Positions 25,812 through 42,192 of a DNA stretch of 42,192 nucleotides are shown piece by piece (positions within the stretch are counted from its first letter, which is position 1; each line of letters starts with the position of its first letter). Made by a program: the position numbers and the translations under genes. Source of the DNA: an uncultured Acidimicrobiaceae bacterium (GTDB taxonomy: Bacteria; Actinomycetota; Acidimicrobiia; Acidimicrobiales; Ilumatobacteraceae); NCBI GenBank assembly GCA_903919455.1, contig CAIXIJ010000004.1, positions 1 to 42,192 on the forward strand. Reading direction: 5' to 3'. The notes below the pieces were generated by a model. That model was given only the letters and a program-made list of their open reading frames with translations. It was not told the origin of the DNA and made no database searches.

Positions 25812-25817
25812 CAGAAT
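25812..25817 (+). promoter_or_regulatory. -10 hexamer of the DUF3105 gene
   Basis: CAGAAT ends six bases before the ATG at 25824. It selects this ATG over an upstream in-frame start at 25794 and predicts a leaderless mRNA. Confidence 0.4.
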
Positions 25818-25823
25818 GGTCGT

Positions 25824-26606: not shown

Positions 26607-26611
26607 GCCCC

Positions 26612-26618
26612 TAGTCTG
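26612..26618. promoter_or_regulatory. Overlapping divergent -10 boxes for the zinc-ribbon gene and rsmD
   Basis: CAGACT on the minus strand (26618-26613) serves GTG 26606. TAGTCT on the plus strand (26612-26617) is seven bases before ATG 26625, the start of a tiny open frame, and 24 bases before the rsmD start. Confidence 0.45.
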
Positions 26619-26624
26619 GCCGCA

Positions 26625-26651
26625 ATGCGAAGGATGTGGGCATGCGCGTGA
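26625..26651 (+). CDS. Possible leaderless 8-residue upstream ORF of rsmD
   Basis: ATG 26625 lies at leaderless distance from TAGTCT and reads MRRMWACA before TGA 26649-26651. This frame runs across the rsmD ribosome-binding site and past its ATG at 26642, so translating it could affect rsmD initiation. It contains a Cys codon, as do some actinobacterial cysteine-sensing leader peptides. Short ORFs of this size occur by chance, so the call is tentative. Confidence 0.25.
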   Translation: MRRMWACA

Positions 26652-27160
26652 TTTCTGGTGAACTCGGTGGGCGCAAGCTCGTGGCTCCTGCTGGCGATAC
26701 GACGCGTCCCACCACCGACAAGGTGCGCCAGGCGGTGTTCAACTCGCTGGGCAGCATGGGTGTCATCGAGGGTGCTGTGGTGGCCGACCTCTATGCAGGG
26801 TCGGGAGCGCTGGGTATCGAAGCCCTGTCGCGAGGTGCCGAACGCTGCATCTTCGTAGAACGCGATCGCGCTGCCCTGCACGCACTACGTGAGAACATTT
26901 CGGCACTGGGCCTCGGCGAGCGGGCTTCCGTGCATGCCACCGACGTGATGGCGTGGGTGCCGGCCATGCGCAACGTCGACATCGCATTCATCGACCCTCC
27001 CTACGCGTTCGACGCGTGGGCGAATCTTCTGCCGTTGGTCGACGTCGGCATGGTGGTGGCGGAAGCCGATGATCCGGTAGAGGCCCCCGAGGGCTGGGAG
27101 GTCGCCCGATCGAAACGGTACGGGCGCACCTGGGTGACCGTGCTCGAACGGCTAGCCTGA
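26642..27160 (+). CDS. rsmD: 16S rRNA (guanine966-N2)-methyltransferase RsmD
   Basis: A 172-residue SAM-dependent methyltransferase for G966 of 16S rRNA. The start MRVISGELGGRKL is typical. The SAM motif VADLYAGSGALGIEALSRGA and the catalytic IDPPYAF near residue 118 are clear. ATG 26642 is chosen over GTG 26636 because AAGGA (26630-26634) lies seven bases upstream and the family begins M-R-[VI]-I. It precedes coaD by eight bases, the widespread rsmD-coaD pairing. Confidence 0.95.
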   Translation: MRVISGELGGRKLVAPAGDTTRPTTDKVRQAVFNSLGSMGVIEGAVVADLYAGSGALGIEALSRGAERCIFVERDRAALHALRENISALGLGERASVHATDVMAWVPAMRNVDIAFIDPPYAFDAWANLLPLVDVGMVVAEADDPVEAPEGWEVARSKRYGRTWVTVLERLA

Positions 27161-27168
27161 CCCGTCAC

Positions 27169-27660
27169 ATGGCGACCGTTCTGTACCCCGGCAGTTTCGA
27201 CCCTCTGCACCTCGGCCACATCGATGTCATCGAGCAATCGGTGGCGTTGTTCGGCAAGGTCATCGTGGGTGTGATGCACAACCCCACCAAGCCCAGTGGC
27301 ATGTTCACGCTCGAACAGCGCGTCAGCATGATCAAGGAGAGCATCTCCTACATGCCGTCGGTGAAGGTCGTGGCGTTCGAGGGTCTTGCCGTCGATGCGG
27401 TGAAGCAGGTGAAGGCCGCCTTCATCGTGAAGGGCCTCCGCACTGGCGGCGACTTCGAGGTGGAGCAGCAGATGGCCCACACCAATCACGCCGTCAGTGG
27501 TGTGCGCACGGTCTATTTGCCCTGCAAACCCGCACTCGTCTCGATCAGTAGCCGGTTCATCCGGGAGATCGCGCAGTACGGTGGCGATGTCACTTCGTTG
27601 GTGCCCGCTCCGGTCGCCTCCGGATTGGCCACACAGTTCCCCCGCAAGGGCACCTCCTGA
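27169..27660 (+). CDS. coaD: Phosphopantetheine adenylyltransferase
   Basis: A 163-residue nucleotidyltransferase of coenzyme A synthesis, making dephospho-CoA from 4'-phosphopantetheine and ATP. The ATP-binding (T/H)xGH motif appears in YPGSFDPLHLGHIDVI, the pantetheine pocket in AAFIVKGLRTGGDFEVEQQMAHTN, and SISSRFIREIAQYGGDVTSLVP is the conserved C-terminal signature with the ISSR(F/T) motif. Full length. It follows rsmD directly and precedes sepIVA by 14 bases. Confidence 0.97.
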   Translation: MATVLYPGSFDPLHLGHIDVIEQSVALFGKVIVGVMHNPTKPSGMFTLEQRVSMIKESISYMPSVKVVAFEGLAVDAVKQVKAAFIVKGLRTGGDFEVEQQMAHTNHAVSGVRTVYLPCKPALVSISSRFIREIAQYGGDVTSLVPAPVASGLATQFPRKGTS

Positions 27661-27674
27661 ACGAGGCAGATGCG

Positions 27675-28268
27675 ATGAGCCACGACGACCAGTACGACGA
27701 CTTCGACCCAGAGATCGACGATTCCGACGCGTACGTACGCACCACCAATGGGTACGTGGGCGACGCCGAAACGATGCTGCAGCGAGTCATCGACATCATT
27801 GCCAACGCCCCGAAGATGCCGCTGTCGTCGTCGCCGCGCATCGATGGCGACGAGATCATCGAGTTGCTCGACGAGGCACTTCGTCGCCTTCCCGAGGAAA
27901 TGCGTCACGCTCGCTGGATGGTCAAGGAACGCCAGGACTTCGTGTCGAAGACCCGGCGCGAGGCCGATGAGTTGCTCGAAGCCGCCCGCGTGCAGGCCGA
28001 GCGGATGGTGCAGCGTACGGAGGTGGTTCGGGCCGCCGAGGCTCGCGCTCGCCAGATTTCCGAGGCAGCGGATGCCGATGCTCGCCGTTTGCGTCACGAG
28101 ACCGAGGACTTCCTCGACCAGCGCCTCGCAAGCTTCGAAATCCTGCTCGACAAGCTGAACAAGACCGTGCATGCGGGCCGCAGCCGTCTGAACATCGGGT
28201 CTCACCGCGAGTTGGTCGAAGAGGAAGAAGAAGACCCCACGAAGGGCTTCTTCGACCAGGATCGCTGA
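27675..28268 (+). CDS. sepIVA: DivIVA-like coiled-coil protein, SepIVA homologue
   Basis: A 197-residue, mostly helical, charged protein. After an acidic N-terminus, residues about 60-165 carry long heptad helices (for example READELLEAARVQAERMVQ and AADADARRLRHETEDFLDQRL) and the tail is again acidic (EEEEEDP). Position and character match Rv2927c/MSMEG_2416 (SepIVA), an essential septation and cell-elongation factor of mycobacteria that lies immediately before the DUF177 gene, rnc, mutM, smc and ftsY. Low-complexity coiled coils limit certainty; synteny carries much of the call. Confidence 0.75.
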   Translation: MSHDDQYDDFDPEIDDSDAYVRTTNGYVGDAETMLQRVIDIIANAPKMPLSSSPRIDGDEIIELLDEALRRLPEEMRHARWMVKERQDFVSKTRREADELLEAARVQAERMVQRTEVVRAAEARARQISEAADADARRLRHETEDFLDQRLASFEILLDKLNKTVHAGRSRLNIGSHRELVEEEEEDPTKGFFDQDR

Positions 28269-28278
28269 GGTCGACGAG

Positions 28279-28806
28279 ATGGCACACCTGCTGCTGGTGA
28301 ATGCAGCCGAACTGCTGCGACGCGCTGGTACCCAGAAGACGATCTCGGTCGACGTGCCATTGGTCGATCTGGATGTCGTCGACGACCCCCGGTTCCCCGA
28401 TGGGGCCGAGGTGGCCGTGCAACTCGAACTCGAGTCACTCAACGACGGCATCGTGGTGAACGGCACCGTCAGCGTGCCCTGGCACGGCACGTGTCGCCGC
28501 TGCCTGGAACCCACCGGTGGCGTGTCGGTGAGCGACATTGATGAGCTCTACCAGCGGGTGCTCACCGACCCCGACGCATTCGAGATCGTGGGCGACCAAC
28601 TCGACATGCGCTCCATCGCCCGCGAAGTGGTGCTGCTCGACACGCCATCCACGCCGCTGTGCCGGCCACACTGTGCCGGGTTGTGTCCCACCTGCGGCAC
28701 GAACCTCAACGACGCCACCTGTGCGTGTGCAGGGCCCCCCGTCGACCCTCGTTGGTCGGCGCTTGACGGCCTGAAGGGTCTCGGCGATCTGGGCGGGGAC
28801 GCCTGA
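28279..28806 (+). CDS. YceD (DUF177) protein
   Basis: A 175-residue YceD-family protein, usually encoded just before rpmF and linked in bacteria and plants to 23S rRNA accumulation. The core strand VPWHGTCRRCLEPTGGVSVSDIDELYQ holds the conserved C-x2-C. The C-terminal segment DTPSTPLCRPHCAGLCPTCG matches the family's P-LC-P-C-GLCP-CG signature with four Cys, likely a zinc site. Eleven bases separate it from sepIVA. rpmF follows after 99 bases, with a -10-like TAACCT (28848-28853) between. Confidence 0.92.
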   Translation: MAHLLLVNAAELLRRAGTQKTISVDVPLVDLDVVDDPRFPDGAEVAVQLELESLNDGIVVNGTVSVPWHGTCRRCLEPTGGVSVSDIDELYQRVLTDPDAFEIVGDQLDMRSIAREVVLLDTPSTPLCRPHCAGLCPTCGTNLNDATCACAGPPVDPRWSALDGLKGLGDLGGDA

Positions 28807-28847
28807 TTCCACTCCGCGGCAGGTAGCAACCGGGCCGCATCCACCGC

Positions 28848-28905
28848 TAACCTCTCGTGGTTCGTATGCCGAGGGAACCTGCCCTCGCCGGTGCCGGGAG
28901 TCAAC
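28848..28905 (+). promoter_or_regulatory. rpmF: rpmF promoter and hairpin leader
   Basis: A -10-like TAACCT (28848-28853) is followed by a small hairpin in the leader (CGAGGG 28870-28875 with CCCTCG 28882-28887) and a GGGAG ribosome-binding site five bases before ATG 28906. The leader is about 45 bases, unlike the leaderless neighbours, which leaves room for control by RNA structure. Confidence 0.4.
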
Positions 28906-29085
28906 ATGGCTGTTCCCAAGAAGAAGAAGTCGAAGATGAAGACGCACAGCCGCAAGTCGGCCAACATGCGTCTCGCCGTTCCTTCGCGCAGCATCTGCCC
29001 GCGTTGCGCCGCCGCCAAGTTGCCGCACACCGTGTGCCCGGCCTGCGGTTGGTACAAGGACCGCGTCGCCATCGAAGTCGGCTGA
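28906..29085 (+). CDS. rpmF: 50S ribosomal protein L32
   Basis: A 59-residue ribosomal protein. MAVPKKKKSKMKTHSRKS is the standard L32 start, and two Cys pairs (CPRC and CPAC) with GWYKDR make it the zinc-binding form. ATG 28906 has a GGGAG site five bases upstream. The order yceD-rpmF-plsX is conserved across many bacteria. Confidence 0.97.
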   Translation: MAVPKKKKSKMKTHSRKSANMRLAVPSRSICPRCAAAKLPHTVCPACGWYKDRVAIEVG

Positions 29086-29099
29086 GGCTGCCGCTTCAC

Positions 29100-30077
29100 A
29101 TGCTGCCGATCGCTGTCGACGCGATGGGCGGCGACAAAGCGCCGGGCGACATTCTCGCTGGAGCGCATGCCGCCGCAGCCCTGGGTATCCCTGTTGTGCT
29201 CGTCGGTCCTGAGGGGCTCGACGGCATTGGCGACCTTCCCCTCATCCACGCTTCGGAAGTCATCGCCATGGATGACGACCCAGCGGCTGGGGTGCGCCGT
29301 AAGAAGGACTCCACGCTCGTCCGTGCTGCCGAGGCGGTGCGCGATGGCAAGGCCAGCGCCATGGTCTCTGCAGGGAACACCGGCGCCACGATGGCGTCGG
29401 CGCTGCTGCGCATGGGCCGCGTGAAGGGCGTCAATCGCCCGGCCATTGCCACACCAATTCCGGTGCCCGGCTTCCTGCCCAACATTCTGCTCGACGCCGG
29501 CGCCAACGCCGAGGTGTCGGCGGAGTGGTTGGTGCAGTTCGCTCAGATGGGTTCCATCTACGCTCGCCTCCGGTTCGGTATCGAGGAGCCCAAAGTGGGC
29601 CTGTTGTCCATCGGCGAAGAGCCGGGCAAGGGCGACACGCTGCGCAAGGAAGCGTTCGAGTTGTTGTCGGCGGCTCCGGGGATCCACTTCATCGGTAACG
29701 TCGAAGGTCGCGACCTGATGAACAAGACGGCCGACGTCATCGTCACCGACGGGTTCACCGGCAACGTGGCGCTCAAGACGCTCGAGGGTGGCCTCAAGAC
29801 GCTGTTCGCCGCGCTGCTGAACGCGTTCGCCGCCAAGCCGGAATACAAGGAACACGCCGACGCGTTGTTCCCCGCCATTCTGCCGCTCTACGAGCAGATG
29901 AGCCCCGACACGTACGGCGGCGCGGTGCTGCTCGGCGTGGATGGCATCTGCATCATCAGCCACGGCTCCTCGGGCGAGAAGGCCATGCTCAACGCCATCA
30001 AGGTGGCGGAGGAGCTGGCCAACAGCGGCATGGTGGCAGAGATCGCTGCTGCATTCGCCGCACCTGCAGTCGGCTGA
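29100..30077 (+). CDS. plsX: Phosphate acyltransferase PlsX
   Basis: A 325-residue enzyme converting acyl-ACP and phosphate to acyl-phosphate, the first acyl donor of the PlsX/PlsY phospholipid pathway. Signatures are LPIAVDAMGGDKAPGDILAG at the start, SAGNTGATMASALLRMGRVKGVNRPAIATPIP and VTDGFTGNVALKTLEGG. Full length. It follows rpmF by 14 bases. In many genomes fab genes and acpP come next; here the inverted SDR gene stands between plsX and acpP. Confidence 0.96.
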   Translation: MLPIAVDAMGGDKAPGDILAGAHAAAALGIPVVLVGPEGLDGIGDLPLIHASEVIAMDDDPAAGVRRKKDSTLVRAAEAVRDGKASAMVSAGNTGATMASALLRMGRVKGVNRPAIATPIPVPGFLPNILLDAGANAEVSAEWLVQFAQMGSIYARLRFGIEEPKVGLLSIGEEPGKGDTLRKEAFELLSAAPGIHFIGNVEGRDLMNKTADVIVTDGFTGNVALKTLEGGLKTLFAALLNAFAAKPEYKEHADALFPAILPLYEQMSPDTYGGAVLLGVDGICIISHGSSGEKAMLNAIKVAEELANSGMVAEIAAAFAAPAVG

Positions 30078-30083
30078 ATGCCG

Positions 30084-31634
30084 TCACCAGTCGGTGACGC
30101 GGTAGTCCTTCAGGAACTGGCCCCACACGTGTTCGCCCGTGAGCATCCCACTGATGATCGGGTCCACGATGCGAGCCGCGCCATCAACGATGTCGAGCGG
30201 CGGGTGGAAGTGATGATCGGTGGTCTTTCGGTCGGCGATGTGTGCGGGGTCTTCATCGCTCACCCAGCCGGTGTCGACGCTGTTCATGTGGATGCCATCG
30301 GCGTGGTAGTCGGCCGCCGACGTGCGGGTCATCATGTTGAGCGCCGCCTTGGCCATGTTGGTGTGCGGGTGTCGGGTGGTCTTGAACCGACGGTAGAACT
30401 GCCCCTCCACTGCTGAGACGTTCACGATGTGCTTGTCGTTACCGGAGGTGCGCATCATCAACGGCTTGAGGCGAGCGTTCAGGATGAAGGGCGCAACGGC
30501 GTTCACCAACTGGGTTTCGAGCAATTCAACCGACGACACCTCGGCAAGCGTGAGACGCCACGAGTTTCGTTCGCGAAGGTCGATCTGCTGAAGGTCCTGA
30601 TCGAGGCGGCCTTCTGGAAACAGGTCGGCGCCAGCCACATGGTCGTCGGGCAGCAGTTCGGCCTGCGACAGTGCGGCGGCTCGCGACACGCCGATCGGTA
30701 GCGGCGACGCAGGTTGCGTCGCGGCATCGATGCCCGACGTGAGCATGTCGGGGCCGCGCAGGCCTTCGTAGGCCCCGAGCAGTCGAGCGGCGTCGGGCGG
30801 AAGGTCGGCCAGGGCACCCAGTTCGGCATCCATCATGTGCCGATAGAACGCCGGTGGGCGTCGCACGGTCTGGCAGGCGTTGTTGACGATGAAGTCGAGT
30901 CGATCCTCGGTCTGCAGGAGGTGATGGCAGAAGGCCTCCACGCTCGGCGTGTGGCGCAGATCGAGACCGAAGATCTCCAAGCGGTGGCTCCACTCGGAGT
31001 AGTCCGGTTCCTGCGAGTAGCGCAGCGCCGAATCGCGAGGAAACCGGGTGGTGACGATGAGCTTGGCCCCAGCTCGCAGCAACTTGATGCCGGCCTGGTA
31101 ACCGATCTTCACCCGGCCCCCGGTGAGCAACGCCACACGACCGTGAAGGTCGGCAGTTTCGCCTCGCTTCGCAAAGTTGAAGTCGCCGCACTCGGGGCAC
31201 ATCTGGTCGTAGAACGAGTGGATCTGGGTGTACTTCTGCTTGCAGACGTAACAGTGCATCGGCAGCAGCGATTCGCGTTCGGCGGCAGCGTCGTCGCTGT
31301 CGTCGATGTCGTCGGCCTCATGGCTGCCGACCGCGGGCGGCAGCGCCACGTTGGGCGTGGTGAACACCGGCTTGGCGCGCAGGCTGCGAATGCCGGTTTC
31401 GTTCAGTGCCTCCTGGTCGCGATTCGCCTTCGCCTGCTTTTGCTGACGCCGCTCGGCCTTGATCTGGCGACGTCGCGCCACCACATCCGGTTCGTACACA
31501 TCGCCCGCCGCGTTGAGCAACCGGGTGCGTTCCTCCAGCGACAGGTCGGCCAGCAACGACCGGTTGGCCACGATGGCCTCCAGCAGTGCGGTGGCAGCAC
31601 GCAACTGCTCGGCGAGGTCGGGCGCGTCTGGCAC
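30084..31634 (-). CDS. Atypical SDR oxidoreductase with N-terminal zinc ribbon
   Basis: A 516-residue protein, twice the length of a normal SDR. The N-terminal 100 residues are helical and charged. A zinc ribbon follows at about 127-151 (CYVCKQKYTQ, then MCPECGDF). The Rossmann domain begins near 165 with VALLTGGRVKIGYQAGIKLL (a TGGxxxIG nucleotide loop), and IVNNACQTVRR matches the NNAG motif. The serine of NVSAVEGQF is kept, but the YxxxK site reads TNMAK: Lys is there, Tyr is replaced by Thr. It may be a non-classical or non-catalytic SDR. Start GTG 31634 is set by the reading frame and lack of a better start. It is convergent with plsX, six bases apart. Confidence 0.8.
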   Translation of the reverse strand: MPDAPDLAEQLRAATALLEAIVANRSLLADLSLEERTRLLNAAGDVYEPDVVARRRQIKAERRQQKQAKANRDQEALNETGIRSLRAKPVFTTPNVALPPAVGSHEADDIDDSDDAAAERESLLPMHCYVCKQKYTQIHSFYDQMCPECGDFNFAKRGETADLHGRVALLTGGRVKIGYQAGIKLLRAGAKLIVTTRFPRDSALRYSQEPDYSEWSHRLEIFGLDLRHTPSVEAFCHHLLQTEDRLDFIVNNACQTVRRPPAFYRHMMDAELGALADLPPDAARLLGAYEGLRGPDMLTSGIDAATQPASPLPIGVSRAAALSQAELLPDDHVAGADLFPEGRLDQDLQQIDLRERNSWRLTLAEVSSVELLETQLVNAVAPFILNARLKPLMMRTSGNDKHIVNVSAVEGQFYRRFKTTRHPHTNMAKAALNMMTRTSAADYHADGIHMNSVDTGWVSDEDPAHIADRKTTDHHFHPPLDIVDGAARIVDPIISGMLTGEHVWGQFLKDYRVTDW

Positions 31635-31853
31635 GGACGCTGAGGGTACCCATCTTCCGGTCCTGTCGTCGTTCTTGTCGCGGGCGTACCACCAACGCTG
31701 GTGCTCCGACCGCGACCGGTTCGGGCTGCATCAGCCGCGGAGCAGGTCCTTCGCGCCGAGTGATCCGAAACACCCCATCATCCGCGCGGGCTGAGCCGCT
31801 GCGACGGGGCTAGTCTCGGTGGCCGCCGACCCGCAATTGTCAGGAGAAGTCCG
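31635..31853. other. Intergenic region between the SDR gene and acpP
   Basis: No gene is visible on either strand that is not an antisense shadow. It carries a small hairpin (CACCA 31690-31694 with TGGTG 31699-31703), a -10-like TAGTCT at 31811-31816 and the acpP ribosome-binding site AGGAGA at 31842-31847. Confidence 0.5.
31811..31847 (+). promoter_or_regulatory. acpP: acpP promoter and ribosome-binding site
   Basis: TAGTCT (31811-31816) gives a leader of about 30 bases, and AGGAGA (31842-31847) lies six bases before GTG 31854, so acpP is a leadered gene with a strong site. Confidence 0.5.
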
Positions 31854-32150
31854 GTGCCCGCAGAAACCCATGTCGAACAAGGTCCCCTCGATCGGAACGG
31901 TGTCTTCGAGATCGTGCGCGCGAACCTCGCCGACATCCTCGAGATCGACCCGGCCTCCATCAGCGAAGGTCAGTCCTTCACCGACGACCTCGACGCCGAT
32001 TCGTTGGCGTTGATCGAACTCGTCGAAGCGCTCGAGGAGGAACTGGGCGAGCGCTCGGTCGGCTTCCGCATCGAAGACGAGGATCTCGTGGATCTCAAGA
32101 CTGTCCGCGACGCGGTCGACTACGTGTTCGCCAAAGTCCAGGAAGCCTGA
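31854..32150 (+). CDS. acpP: Acyl carrier protein
   Basis: A 98-residue acyl carrier protein. The phosphopantetheine serine is Ser50 in DLDADSLALIELVEALEEE, close to the classic DSL motif. A conserved ISEGQSFTDDLDADS segment precedes it. The N-terminus is about 15 residues longer than E. coli AcpP. GTG 31854 is supported by the ribosome-binding site six bases upstream. The gene directly precedes rnc, the common acpP-rnc pairing, and the rnc coding signal begins at its stop. Confidence 0.93.
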   Translation: MPAETHVEQGPLDRNGVFEIVRANLADILEIDPASISEGQSFTDDLDADSLALIELVEALEEELGERSVGFRIEDEDLVDLKTVRDAVDYVFAKVQEA

Positions 32151-32151
32151 G

Positions 32152-32859
32152 ATCACCCTTCTGCCCGAGCCCGACCTCACCGAGCTCTCCCAGCGGCTCG
32201 GCCACGAGTTTCACGACCTTGGCATCTTGAGCCGCGCTCTGTCGCACCGCAGTTGGTGCGCCGAGGTGGGCGGCCAGCCGAGCAACGAACGGCTGGAGTT
32301 TCTGGGCGACGCCGTGCTGGGCATGGTGGTGGCCGATCTGGCCTACCGGCATCACGGCGAACTCGCCGAGGGGAAGCTCACGGACCTTCGCAAGAGTGTG
32401 GTGAACGCGTCGGCGCTGGCTGAGGTGGCGCTGGAGATCGGCCTCGGCGCGTACCTTCGCCTCGGGAAGGGCGAAGACGCTGCGGGTGGGCGGTCCAAGC
32501 CGTCGATCCTCAGTGATGCATTCGAGGCGGTGCTGGGAGCCGTGTATCTGGATGGCGGCACCGACCAGGCGTTCGCGTTGATCGAGCGACTGTTCGCCGA
32601 ACGCATGGCGGTGGCGGCACAGCGGCTCGACCGTCTCGACTACAAGACGGTGCTCCAAGAACTCACGGCCCGCCAGCACGACACCGCACCGGTGTACGTG
32701 ATCTCCGAGACCGGTCCCGACCACGACAAACGCTTCTTCGCCACGGTCATCGTGAAGGGTGTGGCCGTGGGGACAGGCGAAGGCCGGTCGAAGAAGACGG
32801 CCGAACAGGCTGCGGCAGAGCAGGCCTGGCTCACGCTCGACGCCCAGTCGGTGGGGTAG
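32152..32859 (+). CDS. rnc: Ribonuclease III (start codon uncertain, possibly non-AUG)
   Basis: RNase III, the endonuclease for double-stranded RNA in rRNA and mRNA maturation. The catalytic domain has NERLEFLGDAVLGMVVAD and DAFEAVLGAVYLDGG; the C-terminal double-stranded-RNA-binding domain runs from YKTVLQELTAR to the end. The first helix, LSQRLGHEFHDLGILSRALSHRS, matches the family but lies upstream of the only usual start in frame (TTG 32227). Between 32149 and 32227 there is no ATG, GTG or TTG. I place the start at ATC 32152, eight bases after AGGA in the acpP end; CTG 32161 is an alternative. TTG 32227 would give 210 residues and cut the first helix. Product certain, start not. Confidence 0.85.
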   Translation: MTLLPEPDLTELSQRLGHEFHDLGILSRALSHRSWCAEVGGQPSNERLEFLGDAVLGMVVADLAYRHHGELAEGKLTDLRKSVVNASALAEVALEIGLGAYLRLGKGEDAAGGRSKPSILSDAFEAVLGAVYLDGGTDQAFALIERLFAERMAVAAQRLDRLDYKTVLQELTARQHDTAPVYVISETGPDHDKRFFATVIVKGVAVGTGEGRSKKTAEQAAAEQAWLTLDAQSVG

Positions 32860-32861
32860 CG

Positions 32862-33704
32862 GTGCCCGAACTCCCCGAGGTGGAAACCGTCCGCCGCGGC
32901 ATCGAGGTGCAGGTGGTGGGGCGACGAGTACGACGCGTGCACGTGGGTCGAGAGCGAACGGTGCGGCGAACGTCGCGTCAGGCGCTGATCGACGGTCTCA
33001 CCGACGCCACGATCACAGCTGCCAATCGGCGCGGCAAGTATCTGCTCTGCCCCCTCGACACGGGCGATGAACTGATGGTGCACCTGCGAATGAGCGGCCG
33101 CCTTCTGGTGGCCGACGCCGGTACGGAACCTCCGCCCCACACCCATGTGCGGCTGGAGTTCTTTGGCGAACCAGCGCAGGAACTGTGGTTCGTCGACCCG
33201 CGCACGTTCGGCGAAATGGTGGTCTTCGACCCTGGCAACATCGCCGTGGAGATGCCCGAACTCGCCAAGCTCGGCGTGGACCCCATTACCGATGGGATGT
33301 CGCGTGGCCAACTGTCGCGCCTGCTGATGGACCGACGTCGACAGCTGAAGGCGCTGCTGCTGGATCAGCATGTGGTGGCGGGCATCGGCAACATCTACTG
33401 CGACGAGAGTCTGCACCGGGCCAAGATCCGTCCCGACCGCATCAGCGACACCCTCACGGCCCGCGAGGTGGGCCGCCTGCACGAGGCGATCATCGACACG
33501 CTCACCGCAGCAATCGAAGCTGGCGGCAGCACGCTCGCGGATACCCAGTACGTGGACATCGAAGGTCAGGGCGGTTGGTTCCAGGTGCACCACCGGGTGT
33601 ACGACCGTGCCGGTCAGCGGTGCATCACCTGCGGCAAGGCCGACATCGTTCGCATCGTGTCGGCTGGCCGCTCCACGTGTTTCTGCCCGCGCTGCCAGCG
33701 GTAA
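32862..33704 (+). CDS. mutM: Formamidopyrimidine-DNA glycosylase
   Basis: A 280-residue DNA glycosylase/AP lyase removing 8-oxoguanine and related lesions. After Met, PELPEVETVRRG gives the catalytic Pro and Glu. RRGKYLLC supplies the conserved Lys, and VVAGIGNIYCDESL is the helix-two-turns-helix. The C-terminal zinc finger (CITCGKADI, then CFCPRCQ) has four Cys. Start GTG 32862 is two bases after the rnc stop. Position between rnc and smc matches the mycobacterial order. Confidence 0.96.
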   Translation: MPELPEVETVRRGIEVQVVGRRVRRVHVGRERTVRRTSRQALIDGLTDATITAANRRGKYLLCPLDTGDELMVHLRMSGRLLVADAGTEPPPHTHVRLEFFGEPAQELWFVDPRTFGEMVVFDPGNIAVEMPELAKLGVDPITDGMSRGQLSRLLMDRRRQLKALLLDQHVVAGIGNIYCDESLHRAKIRPDRISDTLTAREVGRLHEAIIDTLTAAIEAGGSTLADTQYVDIEGQGGWFQVHHRVYDRAGQRCITCGKADIVRIVSAGRSTCFCPRCQR

Positions 33705-33764
33705 TGGCCTCGAAGGCCTCGCTGTTGGGGCGGTGTCGGCGCATCCGTTAGGGTCTCGAACGCC

Positions 33765-36700
33765 GTGTTCCTGAAATCGCTCACCCTCAAAGGCTTCAAG
33801 TCGTTCGCCGACTCCACCGTGCTCCAACTCGAGCCAGGAGTCACCGTCGTGGTCGGTCCGAACGGGTCGGGCAAGTCGAACGTGGTGGATGCCATCGCAT
33901 GGGTGCTCGGTGCGCAGGCGCCCAGCGCCGTGCGGAGCCAGAAGATGGACGACGTCATCTTCGCCGGTACGGCGAAGCGGCCAGCCCTCGGCCGAGCCGA
34001 AGTGACGCTCACCATCGACAACTCGGCAGGGCTACTGCCCATCGAGTTCACCGAGGTCACGGTGTCGCGCATTCTGTTTCGCACGGGCGAGAGCGAGTAC
34101 GCCATCAATGGCGTGTCATGTCGCCTGCTCGATGTGCAGGAACTGCTCAGCGACGCTGGTGTAGGCCGGCAACAGCACGTGATCGTCAGCCAGGGCCAGA
34201 TCGACGCCGTGCTGAACGCTCGCCCGGAAGATCGTCGCGGCATCATCGAAGAAGCCGCTGGCGTGCTGAAGTACCGCAAGCGCAAGGAGAAGGCCGAGCG
34301 TCGTCTCGATGCCACCGAGGCCAGCCTGCTGCGCGTGCAAGACCTGTTGCGAGAGGTTCGTCGCCAACTGCGACCGCTCGAGCGCCAAGCCGATGCTGCT
34401 CGTCGCCACGGCGATCTCGTGGCCGAACTCAGCGCGCTGCAGGTGTTCCTGGCCGGTCGTGAGATCGCGTCGCAGCGTGCACGTCTCACGGCGCTCGCCG
34501 GCGAGAAGATCACCTTCGGCGAAGCCGAGCAGACCCTGCGAACCGAGCTGGCGTCCCTCGACACCGACGTGATGGCTGCCGAAGCCGAACTCACCGCTCG
34601 TGGCGACACCGACCTCGGCGACGAGATGGTGCGGGTGGAGCAACTGCGCGAACGGGCCCGAGGTAGCGCGGCCGTGCTGGTGGAGCGCCGCCGATCCATG
34701 GAACGCGATCGTGGCCAACTCATGGATTCCGGTGTCGTCGCGAACCTCGAGGCTGAGGCCGGTCGTCTGCGCGATGAACTCGCCACCGTGGAGACCGATC
34801 TTGCTGGTCTGGGTCCCGACACCGAGACGCTCGAGGCCGAAGAGCAGCAGTTCGCCCGCGAACGCCGAGAGACGCTTGCTGCCATCGATCAACTCGGTGG
34901 CAGCACGTCGGCCGCTTCAGCCGCAGCCGAGGTCCGTGGCGAACTGCGTTCCATGCGGTCGGGCGTCGAGCGTGCGGATGCCGATCTGCGCCGCCAGCGC
35001 ACTCGGCTGGAGTCGCTCCAGCAGCGCTCCACTCGGCTCGATGCCGAGTGCGAGCGTTTGAAGAACGAGATCGAGTCGGCGCAGACCATCGAGGCCGAAC
35101 TCGTTGCCGGTGTGGAGGCTGCCGAGGCCCGGCGCATCGCGGCCGACGCGGCGCACGACACCGTGGTCGGCTCGCGGCAGGGTGCAGCAGAAGAGTTCAG
35201 TCGTTGGCGGGCACGAGCCGAGGCCCTGCATCTCGCTTTGGAGAGCGCTCGCGCTCGTGCCGGAGCCGAACATCTCGCCGGTGTGGATGGTGTGCTCGGA
35301 ACCCTGCTCGATCTCATCGAGATCGACGCCGGTTGGGAAAGCGCCGTGGAAGCTGCGCTGGGCGAGGCGCTCCAAGCAGTCGTGGTGGCGTCGCCCGCCA
35401 CGGGTCGCTCTGCGTTGCAGTCGCTGCAGTCGAACAACGTGGCGGGTGCCGTGTTGGCGCTCGGAGCGCGTGGCACCACCGCTGCGTCTTCGGTCGGTGG
35501 TGGGGAAGCGGTGCGGCCGCATGTCCGCAGCCGTCACGAAGGCGTGCCCGAACTGCTCGACGCTGTGCTCGGTGGCGCCGTTCGCGTTGCGAATTGGAAT
35601 GCTGCCGTCGACCTTGCCATCGGTAACCCCACTGCGGTGGTGGTCACCGCCGACGGCGATCGGTTTGGCCCGACTGGTTGGCGTATCGGTGCCGCCGGAG
35701 GTGGAGCCACGGCGGCAGCGCTGGAGGAAGCTCAGGAACGGCAGGGCACCGCCCAGGCCGAACTGTCCCGCCTCGAGGCAGCGCTCGCCGGTGCCAAGGC
35801 CGAACTGCAGGCCGCTCGCCAGCAGGAGAACGAACTCAGCCGAAAGCTCGACGCCCACGATGCAGGCTTCTCGGCGAACAGCGAGGCGCTCGCCCGCAGC
35901 CAGTCCGAACGCCGCGATGCTCAGTCGGAGATGGAGACGCTCGAGCGTGGGCTCACCGATGCCGATGAGCGCACTGAACGCGAACGTGTTCGTATCTCCG
36001 AACTCGAAGCGCTGGTTCCTGCACTCGAAGCCGATGAGGCAGCCGAGGCTGAAGCAGCCAAGGCCCGTGGTGAAGCTCGCGCTCGACTCGATGCGCAGAC
36101 TGCTCGCCTGTCTAGCCGCCGCCAGGATCTGGAGGTCCGCAACGCCGGCTTGCACGAGCGCCAGGCCTTTCTCGAGCGTCGCCTCGCGGAGACCGAGCGC
36201 CGCCTCGAAGCAGACACCGTTGCTCGCACCGAGGCCGCGCATCGTCGCGAAGCGGTCGAGCGCAGCCTTTCGGCAGTCGAGCGCTTGGCTGGCCTGGTGG
36301 AGGCCCATCGCCACGTCATCGAAGTTCGCCACAACGAACTGCTCGAAATCCGCCGCCGCCAGAGCGACGAGGTGCGGGGGATCGCGCAGCGGCTCGACGG
36401 ATTGCGTCGCCGCCGGTCGGCAGCCGAGAAGGAACTCGAAGAATCGCGCGAGCGCATGCGCCGCGTGGAGATCGATGAGGCCGAGGTGCGCATGCGACTC
36501 GAAGGGGCCGTGGAGGCGCTGCGTCGCGACCACGACCTCGAGCCCGCAGCCGCCGAGGCCGCGGAGATGCCGCCGCTACCCGAGGGCATCAGTGCTGCAG
36601 CACGAGTGCGCGACCTAGAGCGAGAACTGCGTCTGATGGGCCCCATCAACCCATTGGCGCTGGAGGAGTTCAACGAACTGCAGGAGCGCCACCGGTTCTT

Positions 36701-37238
36701 GGAAGAGCAACTCGACGACGTGCGCAACACGCGCCGCGACCTGATGCGCGTGATCAAGGCCGTCGACCTCGAGATCCAGACTGTCTTCTCGGCTGCGTTC
36801 GCCGACGTGAGCACGCACTTCAATCAGCTGTTCTCGAACCTGTTCCCCGGTGGCGCCGGCAAGCTGGTGCTCACCACTCCCGACGACCTGCTGAACACCG
36901 GCATCGAGGTGGAGGCCAAGCCCAGTGGCAAGAACGTGAAGAAGCTCTCGTTGCTGTCGGGTGGCGAGCGAAGCCTCACGGCCCTGGCGTTCCTCTTCGC
37001 GGTGTTCCGCAGCCGCCCTTCGCCGTTCTATGTGATGGACGAAGTGGAAGCCGCGCTCGACGATGTGAACCTGCATCGCTTCCTCGGCTTGATCGCCGAG
37101 TTCCGCCAAGAGGCGCAGCTGCTGATCGTCAGCCACCAGAAGCGCACCATGGAGGCCGGCGACAGCCTGCTCGGCGTCAGCATGCAGCCGGGCGGTTCGT
37201 CGAAGGTCATCGTGGAGAAGGTCTCGACCTCCGCTTGA
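33765..37238 (+). CDS. smc: Chromosome segregation protein SMC
   Basis: A 1157-residue SMC ATPase that compacts and segregates the chromosome with ScpA and ScpB. The N-terminal head has Walker A (VVVGPNGSGKSNVVDAIAWVLG). The first coiled coil runs to about 490, the hinge lies at about 500-640, and the second coiled coil is at about 650-950. The C-terminal head has the ABC signature LLSGGERSLTALAFLFA and Walker B PFYVMDEVEAALDD. Full length. Start GTG 33765, with a -10-like TAGGGT (33749-33754) before it. Like the mycobacterial locus, it lies between mutM and ftsY, but a damaged pot operon is interposed. Confidence 0.97.
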   Translation: MFLKSLTLKGFKSFADSTVLQLEPGVTVVVGPNGSGKSNVVDAIAWVLGAQAPSAVRSQKMDDVIFAGTAKRPALGRAEVTLTIDNSAGLLPIEFTEVTVSRILFRTGESEYAINGVSCRLLDVQELLSDAGVGRQQHVIVSQGQIDAVLNARPEDRRGIIEEAAGVLKYRKRKEKAERRLDATEASLLRVQDLLREVRRQLRPLERQADAARRHGDLVAELSALQVFLAGREIASQRARLTALAGEKITFGEAEQTLRTELASLDTDVMAAEAELTARGDTDLGDEMVRVEQLRERARGSAAVLVERRRSMERDRGQLMDSGVVANLEAEAGRLRDELATVETDLAGLGPDTETLEAEEQQFARERRETLAAIDQLGGSTSAASAAAEVRGELRSMRSGVERADADLRRQRTRLESLQQRSTRLDAECERLKNEIESAQTIEAELVAGVEAAEARRIAADAAHDTVVGSRQGAAEEFSRWRARAEALHLALESARARAGAEHLAGVDGVLGTLLDLIEIDAGWESAVEAALGEALQAVVVASPATGRSALQSLQSNNVAGAVLALGARGTTAASSVGGGEAVRPHVRSRHEGVPELLDAVLGGAVRVANWNAAVDLAIGNPTAVVVTADGDRFGPTGWRIGAAGGGATAAALEEAQERQGTAQAELSRLEAALAGAKAELQAARQQENELSRKLDAHDAGFSANSEALARSQSERRDAQSEMETLERGLTDADERTERERVRISELEALVPALEADEAAEAEAAKARGEARARLDAQTARLSSRRQDLEVRNAGLHERQAFLERRLAETERRLEADTVARTEAAHRREAVERSLSAVERLAGLVEAHRHVIEVRHNELLEIRRRQSDEVRGIAQRLDGLRRRRSAAEKELEESRERMRRVEIDEAEVRMRLEGAVEALRRDHDLEPAAAEAAEMPPLPEGISAAARVRDLERELRLMGPINPLALEEFNELQERHRFLEEQLDDVRNTRRDLMRVIKAVDLEIQTVFSAAFADVSTHFNQLFSNLFPGGAGKLVLTTPDDLLNTGIEVEAKPSGKNVKKLSLLSGGERSLTALAFLFAVFRSRPSPFYVMDEVEAALDDVNLHRFLGLIAEFRQEAQLLIVSHQKRTMEAGDSLLGVSMQPGGSSKVIVEKVSTSA

Positions 37239-37246
37239 GCCACGTT

Positions 37247-37255
37247 TGCTAGCAT
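37247..37255 (+). promoter_or_regulatory. potA: Extended -10 promoter of the pot operon
   Basis: TGCTAGCAT is an extended -10 (TG-N-TAnnnT) 60 bases upstream of the potA GTG at 37316. A GGGGAG run about 13 bases before the GTG may be its ribosome-binding site. Confidence 0.4.
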
Positions 37256-37315
37256 CGTCCAACGCTTGCGAGCCCGTATCGCAACCTCGAAATCCACGGG
37301 GAGAAGCAGCGCATC

Positions 37316-37785
37316 GTGAGTGATCCCGCTGCACTGACAGCACGACACGACGATGCTCGCACCGCTCCTGCCATTCAGTTGGTGGGGCTGCGGAAGCAGT
37401 TCGGCGCGGGCGATCTCGCCGTGCACGCGGTGGATGGCGTCGACCTCGAGATTCGCGAGGGCGAGTTCTTCTCCCTGCTCGGCCCGAGTGGCAGCGGCAA
37501 GACCACGGTGTTGCGCATGATCGCCGGTTTCGAGACACCCACGGCGGGCGCCATTCTGCTGCAGGGAACCGATGTCACCCATCGGCCGCCCTACGACCGC
37601 GACGTGAACACGGTGTTCCAGGACTACGCACTGTTCCCGCACATGACCGTGCAGGAGAACGTGGAGTATGGCCTTCGAGTGAAGAAGGTCGGTAAGGCCG
37701 ACCGGCGCGCCCGAGCGGGCGAGATGCTCGACGCGGTGCGTCTCGGCAACTACGGCGCGCGCAAGCCCGACCAACTCAGCGGAGG
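37316..37785 (+). pseudogene. potA: Truncated potA: spermidine/putrescine ABC transporter ATPase fragment
   Basis: The first 157 codons are a clean PotA-type ATPase. They include [11 protein letters not shown], the Walker [19 protein letters not shown], the Q-loop [17 protein letters not shown] and the signature start PDQLSGG. Directly after LSGG the frame loses all similarity (LRLASDGG instead of QQQRVALARA), and PotB coding sequence begins in another frame near 37786. The Walker B, H-loop and regulatory domain (about 200 residues) are absent, so it cannot be a working ATPase. The frame runs out of phase to a stop at 37967-37969. The cause is a deletion joining potA and potB, real or from assembly. 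Confidence 0.85.
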
Positions 37786-38249
37786 CCTTCGCCTGGCGAG
37801 CGATGGTGGCATCACCGGGCGGTGTGCTCGACACCACGTTCGGTTTCAGCCCGGGCTATGGCGTCACCGCGCTGATCGTGGTGCTGGCGTACCTGTGGCT
37901 GCCGTTCATGGTGGTGCCCGTGTACGCCGGCCTCGAACGGCTACCGAACTCGCTGCTCGAAGCGAGTAGCGATCTCGGTGCCACCTTTGCCCACACGTTT
38001 CGGCGCGTGGTGCTGCCGGTCATCGTGCCCTCGCTGGTGGCCGGCTCGGTGTTCACCTTTTCGCTCACGCTCGGCGACTACATCGCGGTGTCGCTAGTGG
38101 GCGGTAGCACCCAGATGATCGGTTCGATCGTGTACCAGAACCATGCGTCGAACCTGCCGCTCGCTGCGGCGTATGCGTTGGTGCCGGTGGTGGTGATGGT
38201 GCTGTATCTGTTGGGCATCCGTCGAACCGGTGCCCTGGAGCAACTGTGA
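37786..38249 (+). pseudogene. potB: 5'-truncated potB: polyamine ABC permease fragment
   Basis: From about 37786, in a frame different from potA, the sequence reads [15 protein letters not shown] and continues as the C-terminal half of a PotB permease. It includes [20 protein letters not shown], the EAA-type loop [20 protein letters not shown] that docks the ATPase, and the last membrane spans. About the first 140-150 residues are missing. Its TGA overlaps the potC GTG (GTGA), so potB and potC were translationally coupled. An internal ATG at 37803 exists, but a half permease is unlikely to work. Confidence 0.85.
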
Positions 38250-39055
38250 ACGCCACCCGCGCCGTCCGTTGGTTCTTCCGCAGTACCAGTGCAGTGGTGT
38301 TGGCGTTCATGTATGCGCCGCTGTTCGTCGTGATCGCCTTGTCGTTCAACGGTAGTTCGGCACTCACCTGGCCGCCGCGCGACCTCACCTTGAAGTGGTG
38401 GGGCAAGGCCATCCACAACGAGGGTGCTCGCGACGCCCTGATGAACAGCCTCAAGGTGGCTGCCGGCGCCACGGTGGTGGCCCTGGTGCTGGGCAGCATG
38501 GCCTCGATGGCGGTGCATCGCTTCAAATTCTTCGGGCGCGACACGGTGAGCCTGCTCATCGTGTTGCCCATTGCGTTGCCGGGCATCGTCACCGGTATCG
38601 CGCTCAACGCCGCGTTCACATCGGCGGGTATCGAGTTCGGTCTCCTCACGCTGATCATCGCTCACGCCACGTTCTGCATCGTGGTGATGTACAACAACAC
38701 GCTCGCTCGTTTGCGGCGTCTGTCGCCGAACTTGGAAGAAGCCAGCGCCGATCTGGGCGGCGACGCGTTCCAGACATTCCGCTATGTCACGTTCCCGCTC
38801 ATGCGGTCTGCGCTGCTGGCGGGCGGACTGCTGGCCTTCGGTCTCAGCTTCGACGAGATCGTGGTCACCACGTTCACTGCGTCTCCCGGCCTCGAAACAC
38901 TGCCGCTCTGGATTTTCAACAACCTCAGCCGCGGCGACCAGCAGCCCATCGTGACGGTGGTGGCATCCACCGTGATGTTGCTGTCCATCGTGCCCGTCTG
39001 GTTGGCGCAGCGCCTCACTGGCGAGCCCGGGGCAGTCACCGGCGGCACTCGCTAG
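38246..39055 (+). CDS. potC: Spermidine/putrescine ABC transporter permease PotC
   Basis: A 269-residue inner-membrane permease with six hydrophobic spans. ALSFNGSSALTWPPRDLTLKWW is the PotC N-terminal periplasmic pattern. The EAA-type loop LEEASADLGGDAFQTFRYVTFPLM contacts the ATPase, and LAFGLSFDEIVVTTFTA is a further family signature. It is full length and starts at GTG 38246, overlapping the end of potB. The downstream gene is ftsY; no potD (binding protein) is in the window. With potA and potB damaged, this permease has no obvious local partner. Confidence 0.92.
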   Translation: MNATRAVRWFFRSTSAVVLAFMYAPLFVVIALSFNGSSALTWPPRDLTLKWWGKAIHNEGARDALMNSLKVAAGATVVALVLGSMASMAVHRFKFFGRDTVSLLIVLPIALPGIVTGIALNAAFTSAGIEFGLLTLIIAHATFCIVVMYNNTLARLRRLSPNLEEASADLGGDAFQTFRYVTFPLMRSALLAGGLLAFGLSFDEIVVTTFTASPGLETLPLWIFNNLSRGDQQPIVTVVASTVMLLSIVPVWLAQRLTGEPGAVTGGTR

Positions 39056-39081
39056 GCCCTCGCCGATAGCCTTCGGACACC

Positions 39082-40239
39082 ATGTCGTCCACGATCTATC
39101 TCGTTCTCATTGCCGTTGCCGTGGTGTTCGGCATCGGCGCCGTGCTCGTCAACCGCAGCCGGAGCGCCAAGGTGAAGCCAGCCGCGCCGGCCCCTTCGCG
39201 TCCGGCGCCCACAAAGCCTGCGAAGCCGGCACCTGCGCCGGCCGCCGTGGTCACGCCGCCGCCAGCCACCGATGCGGAAGCCGAGCCCGAGCTGGAGCCC
39301 GAACCCGAGCCGGAGCCGGAGATCGAACGCGCCAGCTTCCGCACGCGCATGTCGAAGGCACGCGGAGCGCTCACGGGAGCGTTCCTCGGTATCCGCTCCC
39401 GCGGAGGCATCACCAACGAGACGTGGGACGACCTCGAGGAAGCACTGCTGCGTGCCGACGTGGGGGTGCGCGTCACCGACGAGTTGCTCGAGGGGCTGAA
39501 GGGGCGCGTGAAGAGCAAGGAGATCGCCGACCCGGATGCACTGCTGGCCGCGCTCCAGGCCGAGATGCGCTCGCGTCTCGAAGGCACCGACCGTGGCCTC
39601 ACCTTCGAGCCCGGCGCGCCGGGTAGTCCCAACGTGTGGCTCTTCGTAGGGGTGAACGGCGTGGGCAAGACCACCACCATCGGCAAGCTCGCCAATCAGC
39701 AGATCGCCGATGGTCGCACGGTACTGATGGCTGCGGGCGACACGTTCCGTGCGGCGGCGGCCGAGCAGCTCACCACCTGGGCCGAGCGCAGCGGTGCCGA
39801 GATCGTGCGCGGCAATGAGGGAGGCGACCCCAGCGCGGTCATCTTCGACGCCATCGAGCGTGCCAGTGCTCGCAACATCGACCTGGTGCTGGCCGATACG
39901 GCCGGTCGTCTGCACACCAAGACCAACCTGATGGACGAATTGCGCAAGGTGCGCCGCGTGGCGGCGAAAGGTGATGGCCGTGTCACCGAGGTGCTGCTCG
40001 TCATCGACGCCACCACCGGCCAGAACGGTCTCACCCAGGCTCGCGAGTTCGGCGATGCCACGGAGGTGACCGGGGTGGTGCTCACCAAGCTCGACGGCTC
40101 GGCAAAGGGCGGCATCGTGTTCGCCATCGAGACCGAACTCGGGTTGCCGGTGAAGCTGGTGGGCCTGGGGGAGACCATCCACGACATGGTGCCCTTCGAC
40201 CCCGCCGATTTCATCGACGCCCTTTTCCAAGAATCCTGA
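39082..40239 (+). CDS. ftsY: Signal recognition particle receptor FtsY
   Basis: A 385-residue SRP receptor GTPase. A single N-terminal hydrophobic segment (IYLVLIAVAVVFGIGAVLV) anchors it to the membrane. A Pro/Ala and Glu-rich linker (PELEPEPEPEPE-like) follows. The NG domain has the G1 loop GVNGVGKTTTIGKLAN, DTFRAAAAEQL, DTAGRLHTKTNLM (G3) and TKLDGSAKGG (G4). The N-terminal anchor is typical of actinobacterial FtsY. ffh begins 1.8 kb downstream. A TAGCCT (39067-39072) nine bases before ATG 39082 may be its -10. Confidence 0.96.
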   Translation: MSSTIYLVLIAVAVVFGIGAVLVNRSRSAKVKPAAPAPSRPAPTKPAKPAPAPAAVVTPPPATDAEAEPELEPEPEPEPEIERASFRTRMSKARGALTGAFLGIRSRGGITNETWDDLEEALLRADVGVRVTDELLEGLKGRVKSKEIADPDALLAALQAEMRSRLEGTDRGLTFEPGAPGSPNVWLFVGVNGVGKTTTIGKLANQQIADGRTVLMAAGDTFRAAAAEQLTTWAERSGAEIVRGNEGGDPSAVIFDAIERASARNIDLVLADTAGRLHTKTNLMDELRKVRRVAAKGDGRVTEVLLVIDATTGQNGLTQAREFGDATEVTGVVLTKLDGSAKGGIVFAIETELGLPVKLVGLGETIHDMVPFDPADFIDALFQES

Positions 40240-40247
40240 ACCAATCG

Positions 40248-40274
40248 GGAACCACCCCGATGGTGTCGGTCGTC
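40248..40274 (+). promoter_or_regulatory. ECF-sigma-type promoter
   Basis: GGAACC (40248-40253), a 17-base spacer and CGTC (40271-40274) match the general ECF sigma consensus (GGAAC-N16/17-CGTC), unlike the TAnnnT boxes of the other genes here. The predicted transcript starts near 40281 and leaves a leader of about 44 bases with AGGAAGG before ATG 40325. Confidence 0.65.
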
Positions 40275-40324
40275 ACATGAGTGCACGATCACTTCCCCTT
40301 GGGGACCAAGGAAGGAACACCGCC

Positions 40325-41956
40325 ATGTTGCGCTCTCGTCGAATTGCTTTCGCTGCTGCCGCCATCGTCCTCGGGCTGAGTGCCTGCGGCGACGCCGGTT
40401 CCACCATCTCGTCGGGCAAGGCGCCCGCCGTCATCCACCTCGGCGCAGCCGGTGGGGCGAACAAACTCGCTGCCCCCACTGCAGGCGGCGAGGTTGCCGA
40501 CTCCATGATGCGGCCGTACGGCGGGATCAACTACGTGTACGACGGCAGCTACCCCGACCTCGGTGCCAGCGGCCCGGCGTTCCAGATTCCCGCCGGCACC
40601 ACGATTGATACAGCGATGGTGGCGAGGTTGGCCGCTGCGCTCGGAGTGCAGGGCGAGCCTCGCCAGTTGCCGGCCGACCAGGGCGGCGGTTGGATGGTGG
40701 GCGCGGCCGATTACAGCTCGGCGAACGTCACCGTTGCGGCCGATGGTCTGGCGAGCTGGTGGTTCAACCCCACTCCGGCCGCCACGTCGAGTTCGGGCTG
40801 CGTGGGTATCGCCAAGCCGGTTCAGATGCCCGCTGAGGGCGCCACCGACCCGGGTAGCGGCTCCTCGGGCGGCAGCGCAGGTACCACCGAAGCGGTGCCA
40901 CCTCCCGACGCCATCGCTGTCGATCCGGGTGTGAACTGTGAAGCGCCGCCGGCTCCGGTGAACGTGCCCACCAAGGCCCAGGCCGAGGAGAAGGCTCGCC
41001 AACTCATGGCCACCATTGGCCTCGACGCAGCGCAGTACGAGTTCACCTCGTACGCCGACGAGTACAGCGCCAACGCCACGGCATGGCTGATGCTGGGCGG
41101 TCACCGCAGCCCCATTCAGTTCAATGTCGGTTTCGGCGGTGAGGGTGCGCTGATGTGGGCGTCGGGCTCGCTGGCAGTGCCCGCTCCTGCAGCCGATTAT
41201 CCCGTGGTCACTCCGCAGGATGCCCTCGCTCGGCTCTCCGATCCGTCGGGTCGATGGATGAACTTCGGTGCCCCGTTCGGCGTGGGCATGCGCGGCGGCG
41301 TGGCGATGGCCGATGCTGTGGCATCCGTGGGCGGCGACGTCGCTAGCGGTGGCGCCGCTGGCGCCCCGGTCGAACCCAGCCCGACACCCGCCGTGGGTGC
41401 ACCCGAGCCTGCGCCGGTGTGCGACCCGGCCGCCGACTGCGGGGTGTTGCCCATGCCCACCCCGGATCCCATCACCATTCATCTGAACGGTGTGCGGCTC
41501 GATGTCACCATGGTGTGGGACGCCGACGGCAGCATCTGGCTGCTGCCGGCCTATACCTTCACCAGCGCCGATGGCGGAGAGTTCACGGTGGTCGCGGTCG
41601 ACGACAGCCTGCTCGACCTGCCCGAGCCCGCACCGGTCGACACCACCCCTGCACCGGTTCCGGTGCCGACCGACACGGCTGTCGTGCCCGTCGACACTGT
41701 CGTCGTTGGCCCCACCGACACCGTGGCACCCGACTTCAGCATCCCGCCGGCAGGCGACCCCACCATGGAGTCCGCAGCGGTACTGGTAGGTCTCACATCC
41801 TTGGCTGCCACTGAGGTGGCCGACGCCAACGGTTGGGTGCTTCGGATTTCCACCCTCGACGGCATGGGCCTCATCCTCACCGCCGACTTCGTCACCAATC
41901 GCGTCGACGTGGCCATCGAGGCCGGTGTGGTCACCGGCATCGACAACATCGGCTGA
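40325..41956 (+). CDS. Large lipoprotein of unknown function
   Basis: A 543-residue exported lipoprotein (signal peptide, lipobox LGLSAC with Cys21). Most of it is extracellular beta-rich sequence with two Pro/Ala/Gly-rich linkers, around residues 185-215 and 345-375. A segment QAEEKARQLMATIGLDAAQYEFTSY resembles the helix-strand unit of PepSY-like domains but is not certain. A Val/Pro/Thr-rich stretch (VPVPTDTAVVPVDTVVVGPTDT) precedes the last 70 residues. ATG 40325 is preferred to ATG 40277 because the signal peptide begins there and AAGGAAGG lies upstream. The ECF-type promoter suggests envelope-stress or signal-dependent expression. Confidence 0.8.
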   Translation: MLRSRRIAFAAAAIVLGLSACGDAGSTISSGKAPAVIHLGAAGGANKLAAPTAGGEVADSMMRPYGGINYVYDGSYPDLGASGPAFQIPAGTTIDTAMVARLAAALGVQGEPRQLPADQGGGWMVGAADYSSANVTVAADGLASWWFNPTPAATSSSGCVGIAKPVQMPAEGATDPGSGSSGGSAGTTEAVPPPDAIAVDPGVNCEAPPAPVNVPTKAQAEEKARQLMATIGLDAAQYEFTSYADEYSANATAWLMLGGHRSPIQFNVGFGGEGALMWASGSLAVPAPAADYPVVTPQDALARLSDPSGRWMNFGAPFGVGMRGGVAMADAVASVGGDVASGGAAGAPVEPSPTPAVGAPEPAPVCDPAADCGVLPMPTPDPITIHLNGVRLDVTMVWDADGSIWLLPAYTFTSADGGEFTVVAVDDSLLDLPEPAPVDTTPAPVPVPTDTAVVPVDTVVVGPTDTVAPDFSIPPAGDPTMESAAVLVGLTSLAATEVADANGWVLRISTLDGMGLILTADFVTNRVDVAIEAGVVTGIDNIG

Positions 41957-41996
41957 CGGCATCGGCTGACAACATCGGCTGACGGCGTCGCTCAAC
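41945..41996 (+). repeat. 13-bp tandem repeat across the lipoprotein stop codon
   Basis: Four adjacent 13-base units: AACATCGGCTGAC, GGCATCGGCTGAC, AACATCGGCTGAC and the diverged GGCGTCGCTCAAC (41945-41957, 41958-41970, 41971-41983, 41984-41996). The stop TGA (41954-41956) lies in unit 1, and units 2 and 3 repeat it in the other frames. Confidence 0.85.
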
Positions 41997-42013
41997 GGCA
42001 CCAGGTTTGCGAG

Positions 42014-42040
42014 CCGGGTCGACCCCGTGGGTCGGCCCGG
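42014..42040 (+). terminator. Hairpin between the lipoprotein gene and ffh
   Basis: A 12-bp stem with one G-T wobble (42014-42025 with 42029-42040, 3-base loop) lies 57 bases after the lipoprotein stop. There is no T run, so it may be a weak terminator or only an RNA structure. Confidence 0.45.
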
Positions 42041-42085
42041 TGACGCATTCGCTGGCCGCAACAGCCGGGTAGCGTGAGGCCTCGC

Positions 42086-42192
42086 ATGTTCGATTCCCTG
42101 TCATCCCGCCTCGAAGGCATCGTCAAACGGCTGCGCGGCAAGGGCCGCCTCACCGAGGCCGATGTCGATGAGATGCTGAAAGAGATCCGTAC
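42086..42192 (+). CDS. ffh: Signal recognition particle protein Ffh (5' part only)
   Basis: The first 35 codons of Ffh, cut by the window edge. MFDSLSSRLEGIVKRLRGKGRLTEADVDEMLKEIR matches the N domain of the SRP GTPase, with the usual start MF-SL. Ffh binds 4.5S RNA and signal peptides and docks on FtsY, encoded 1.8 kb upstream. ATG 42086 is the family start; a TAGCGT ten bases before it may be the -10. Confidence 0.92.
   Translation, partial: MFDSLSSRLEGIVKRLRGKGRLTEADVDEMLKEIR

Follow-up and report, generated by a model that had tools for sequence, protein, structure and literature searches.

A YdcTSUV-type importer operon between smc and ftsY, most likely broken by a recent deletion, in an uncultured Acidimicrobiaceae bacterium

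The stretch of DNA analysed here (the window) comprises bases 1-42192, 42,192 nucleotides in all, of contig C4 in a draft genome (G000) of 150 contigs, which is estimated to be 97.18% complete and 2.07% contaminated. Towards its end the window carries the parts of a broken ABC importer operon, flanked by two genes that we take to be smc and ftsY:

33765..37238, plus strand: smc, upstream neighbour, 1157 aa, intact (ORF; full-length relative on contig C79 of genome G007)
37316..37786, plus strand: ydcT/potA-like ATPase gene, 5' remnant of 157 codons (ORF and profile matches)
37316..37969, plus strand: 217-aa ORF created by the junction, consisting of the ATPase remnant and an out-of-frame tail (ORF)
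37783..37787, no strand: proposed deletion junction, AGGCC, with 0-5 bp of possible microhomology (comparison with relatives)
37788..38249, plus strand: ydcU/potB-like permease gene, 3' remnant of 154 codons (ORF, profile matches and comparison with G007)
38246..39055, plus strand: ydcV/potC-like permease gene, intact ORF (ORF, profile matches and comparison with G007)
39082..40239, plus strand: ftsY, downstream neighbour (ORF and comparison with relatives)

The ATPase remnant keeps everything from Walker A through LSGG; Walker B, the H-loop and the TOBE domain of an intact relative are gone. A sequence-only reading of this DNA had noted that PotA similarity stops after LSGG and that PotB similarity resumes at once in another frame, and both observations hold. 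ATPase homology runs from 37316 to LSGG (37786), with Pfam ABC_tran matched only at profile positions 2-113 of 137, while the permease begins again, its frame shifted by one base, with FAWR at 37788-37799 and continues to 38249, covering positions 48-171 of 184 in BPD_transp_1. Inside this second remnant lies an ATG-led ORF of 148 aa that starts at 37803. The potC-like gene is intact, as had also been stated, and overlaps the ydcU remnant through GTGA at 38246-38249. Neither the sequence nor the ORF list contains a gene for a binding protein between the parts of the operon in the window, so that the window copy does not amount to a complete ABC importer of one ATPase, two permeases and a binding protein. 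As assembled, with half an ATPase, half a permease and no binding protein, the transporter cannot work.

The extent of the missing segment was measured against G007, the closest relative found. Window bases 37300-39060 match a single G007 contig in two pieces (query 122-486 at 92% and 484-1754 at 95% identity) that lie 2,234 bp apart, and the extra DNA in G007 between the junction bases comes to 2,237 bp. In the G007 operon the ATPase gene is cut off by the end of the contig, leaving 330 aa; a 388-aa binding protein follows, and then permeases of 297 aa (from the ATG chosen) and 269 aa. Relative to this arrangement, the window has lost about 208 residues of the ATPase and some 143-149 of the permease, in good agreement with the 200 and 140-150 proposed earlier, together with the entire binding-protein gene. 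The accompanying estimate of a 1.0-1.2 kb loss was too low because in the relatives a complete binding-protein gene sits between the ATPase and the permease, a middle gene that could not be known from the window alone. Comparison of the operon among relatives, which the sequence-only reading had proposed as a check, gives a syntenic gene order of T-S-U-V with the binding-protein gene in the middle, several of the loci being cut by contig ends. Elsewhere the window is closely collinear with G007. Left of 37300, four aligned blocks (840-6675, 10894-19498, 19503-25810 and 25453-37300) together span about 32.2 kb, and in none of them does the net length difference exceed 7 bp; for the aligned stretch 37783-42192 it is 14 bp. 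Bases 1-839 and 6676-10893 have no match among those listed in G007. Within the compared part of the window, the missing segment is the only large net indel.

The nature of the lost gene bears on what the operon should be called. The best NCBIfam match of the G007 binding protein is NF041888 (YdcS), at 361.6 bits over residues 16-387, against 46.2 bits for PotF and 45.2 bits for PotD. This score does not reach the YdcS equivalog cut-off of 725 bits, which is passed in 0 of 61 genomes and in 1 of 14 control genomes, and the best PDB match (6nlp_A, E = 1.2e-92) is titled merely a bacterial extracellular solute-binding family protein. The ATPase and permeases of the operon match the PotA, PotB and PotC families best, mostly under the curated cut-offs; the only one of these matches above its cut-off is that to TIGR01187 (potA) in G007, with 362.6 bits against a cut-off of 355.6. 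Because the binding protein is nearest to YdcS, we call the operon YdcTSUV type. The genes named potA and potB earlier are better termed ydcT-like and ydcU-like. Although its ATPase and permeases resemble those of the PotABCD and PotFGHI polyamine importers, the operon differs from both in a binding protein that is weakly PotD/PotF-like (45-46 bits). E. coli YdcSTUV, with the gene order S-T-U-V that its operon name implies, likewise comprises an ATPase, a binding protein and two permeases, and the relative's binding protein matches YdcS over nearly its full length. The differences are that the YdcS score lies below the cut-off, that the order in the relatives is T-S-U-V and that the window keeps only V intact. 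By its family names the operon is a putative polyamine importer. One source counts E. coli YdcSTUV, a putative putrescine ABC importer, among the putrescine transporters (PMC8674398), and another describes E. coli ydcS and ydcV as involved in DNA internalisation (PMC7494812).

The junction itself contains no N. Since the ancestral ends have been lost, the homology across it, 0-5 bp, is inferred through relatives: judged in this way, the maximum shared with the lost left side is the 5-bp AGGCC, and with G007 as a stand-in for both sides no bases are shared at the exact break. The search for short direct repeats at the ends of the missing piece therefore yields at most these 5 bp and possibly 0, and recombination between long direct repeats at the breakpoints was rejected on the same grounds. 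Ku-dependent (classical) end joining is unsupported as a mechanism, given that Ku (PF02735) had no match in this 97.18% complete draft; the G007 assembly likewise lacks it, and 10 of the 15 genus genomes, among them G011, have a match. A DNA search with bases 37660-37910 over the 15 genus genomes gave matches in five others and, at the sensitivity of the search, none in nine. None of the five carries the junction, and one match passes it by 6 bases, on a G008 contig (C194) that differs from the contig holding the G008 operon (C164).

The potC gene had been described as free of decay, and comparison with G007 shows no decay in any of the remaining pieces. Over 148 codons the YdcU remnant differs at 15 nucleotides, all of them silent, and at 0 amino acids; YdcV has 52 nucleotide and 4 amino-acid differences in 269 codons, the YdcT remnant 31 and 5 in 121 codons. 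The dN/dS values of the neighbouring genes against G007 are low (0.033 for smc, 0.098 for ftsY). When changes in the three pieces are polarised with G005 alone, which leaves 27 of them unassigned, the G000 branch receives 7 nonsynonymous and 30 synonymous changes and the G007 branch 6 and 28. The G000 branch thus has no excess of amino-acid changes, and the remnants were under purifying selection until recently. On a fully neutral branch, roughly two to three nonsynonymous changes are expected per synonymous one; by a rough estimate, unconstrained evolution can fill just a small final part of the G000 branch, of the order of a tenth. The absence of decay therefore means that the deletion is recent or that it is not real, which supports the earlier proposal of either a recent event or an assembly collapse.

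With 2,230 bp of G007 sequence as the query for the missing DNA, a search of the G000 contigs returned no close copy. Its matches at E < 1e-5 are 70-83% identical, extend over at most 287 bp and lie in the ATPase part; the best two are paralogous ATPase regions (74% over 287 bp and 77% over 191 bp), and a further match reaches 83% over 63 bp. The best other permease matches in the genome are 34-38% identical. No YdcS-like protein was found in G000, where the best match to the G007 protein is 27% identical, accompanied by two short N-terminal matches, and no protein scores higher than 30.8 bits with the YdcS model. These DNA and protein searches rule out the notion, raised by the sequence-only reading, that the fragment is a remnant beside a full-length potA/potB duplicate elsewhere in the genome.

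Two other Pot-like sets are nevertheless encoded by G000. The set on contig C128 combines a PotA-like ATPase, a PotD-like protein and a fused PotB-PotC permease and adjoins a flavin amine oxidase, while the set on C1 is PotD-B-C-like, with a PotA-like ATPase about 22 kb away. At the former locus (L140, G000:C128:23500-31000), PotB and PotC form one 674-aa ORF, directly followed by the flavin amine oxidase gene. At the latter (L139, G000:C1:112500-119620, and L138), the set lies close to a contig end and has no adjacent ATPase match; the neighbours of the distant ATPase are, by their sequence features, aminotransferase-like and Rieske-type ORFs. Contigs C124 and C282 of G007 match the C128 and C1 sets and look like their counterparts, and the two diverged sets probably predate the deletion and are not compensation for it. 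As both sets remain, the loss of polyamine uptake suggested earlier does not follow, and the alternative then offered, dependence on another ATPase, would not suffice because the binding-protein gene is gone as well.

Of the 14 other genomes of the genus, 10 have YdcS-like matches at E < 1e-80 and G005 has a gapped copy; matches are weak in G003 (25.9 bits) and G010 (56.5 bits), and the search with the YdcS model gave none in G011. The last of these genomes has a lesion of its own between smc and ftsY, in which ydcT through YALFPHM is joined, with no N, to ydcV from about codon 208. The G011 break is found at about 4180-4570 of L143 (G011:C223:10700-16500), reverse complement. It is like that of the window in affecting the same operon at the same locus and in fusing the 5' part of ydcT to a later permease gene without N, but its breakpoints are different and remove S, U and most of V. 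With relatives as stand-ins, the G011 break shows no homology, and one base is explained by neither side. Over 72 codons, the dN/dS of its ydcT remnant is 0.06-0.09 when G014 and G006 are the partners and 0.13-0.24 with the other five genomes in the comparison, values that intact pairs also span. A motif search had located the ATPase fragment in 8 of 10 genomes for this purpose; G004 and G012, where it had no match, were left out. By these values the G011 remnant is likewise undecayed. In G003 (L144) and G010 (L145), ftsY directly follows smc across short, nearly identical spacers, with no YdcTSUV operon; the two may share one loss, or the operon may never have been present there. In G005 (L037, G005:C213:2500-6500), short N-runs (14 N) break up the same operon, which lacks pieces of ydcS and ydcU; these interruptions are probably assembly gaps, not deletions. 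The genus assemblies hold at least two different breaks of the YdcTSUV-type operon, and the fresh look of both may be due to luck, to recent selection or to an assembly problem that the two have in common.

We consider it probable that one genuine and recent event deleted about 2.24 kb from within this ydcT-ydcS-ydcU-ydcV-type operon, which lies between smc and ftsY. Such a deletion would have fused the first 157 ATPase codons to the final 154 of permease U in a shifted frame and, in the same step, eliminated the binding-protein gene entirely, leaving the transporter dead and ydcV stranded, not yet decayed. The likely mechanism would be illegitimate recombination, or slippage, across a microhomology of 0-5 bp. 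Its persistence would likely reflect weak selection for the importer, as two Pot-like sets remain and other members of the genus lack it.

A possible though unlikely alternative is that the population carries the intact operon and that the assembler, or a chimeric molecule, joined reads from ydcT and ydcU. The 150-contig state of the draft is compatible with such an artefact, as is the undecayed condition of all remnants, which would also result from an assembly collapse or a minority-strain path, and the N-filled gaps of G005 indicate that the locus can assemble badly. However, the overlap at the junction is at most 5 bp, the join has no N and the missing 2.2 kb has no close copy on any other G000 contig. 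Usual assembly k-mers far exceed 5 bp; a homology of 0-5 bp appears too short for a k-mer misjoin, and a real deletion is therefore favoured over an artefact. The equally fresh G011 remnant could still point to an artefact mode common in drafts of this kind. Somewhat more doubtful is a strain polymorphism, with the deletion present in part of the population, both alleles coexisting and the assembly having kept the deleted one. This explanation overlaps with that of a real deletion, so that the probabilities we attach to the readings do not sum to one. The very recent age of the lesion suits it, but the intact allele is absent as a separate contig of the assembly, an argument softened by the fact that short contigs often go unbinned. 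It is scarcely credible that the fused ORF and YdcV retain a function, for example within another transporter: YdcV is intact and conserved and G000 has other Pot-like ATPases and permeases, but the fused ORF breaks off before the second half of the ATPase and runs into an out-of-frame tail, the searches of G000 yielded no YdcS-like protein, and recency explains the conservation of YdcV.

The most likely account, then, is a recently broken YdcTSUV-type importer with a real deletion, a gene loss of the ordinary kind whose recurrence in sister genomes is of mild interest. New here are the different internal deletion of G011 (ydcT to ydcV) and the absence of the operon between smc and ftsY in G003 and G010. 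One set of 80 loci contributed a single locus (L058) to the comparisons. We regard it as improbable that the genus is losing its smc-ftsY-linked importer repeatedly and very recently, through separate illegitimate deletions seen before any decay has set in (T to U in G000, T to V in G011) or clean absence (G003, G010); if true, repeated loss would point to present-day selection against the importer, for example as a way in for phage, DNA or a toxic substrate, and not to a mere lack of need. The locus also serves as a test case for the trust to be placed in sharp deletions of draft genomes. The differing lesions in sister genomes provide a small natural series for the loss of a transporter operon, and the metabolic inference for G000 is corrected: this genome should be neither credited with the importer nor described as incapable of polyamine uptake.
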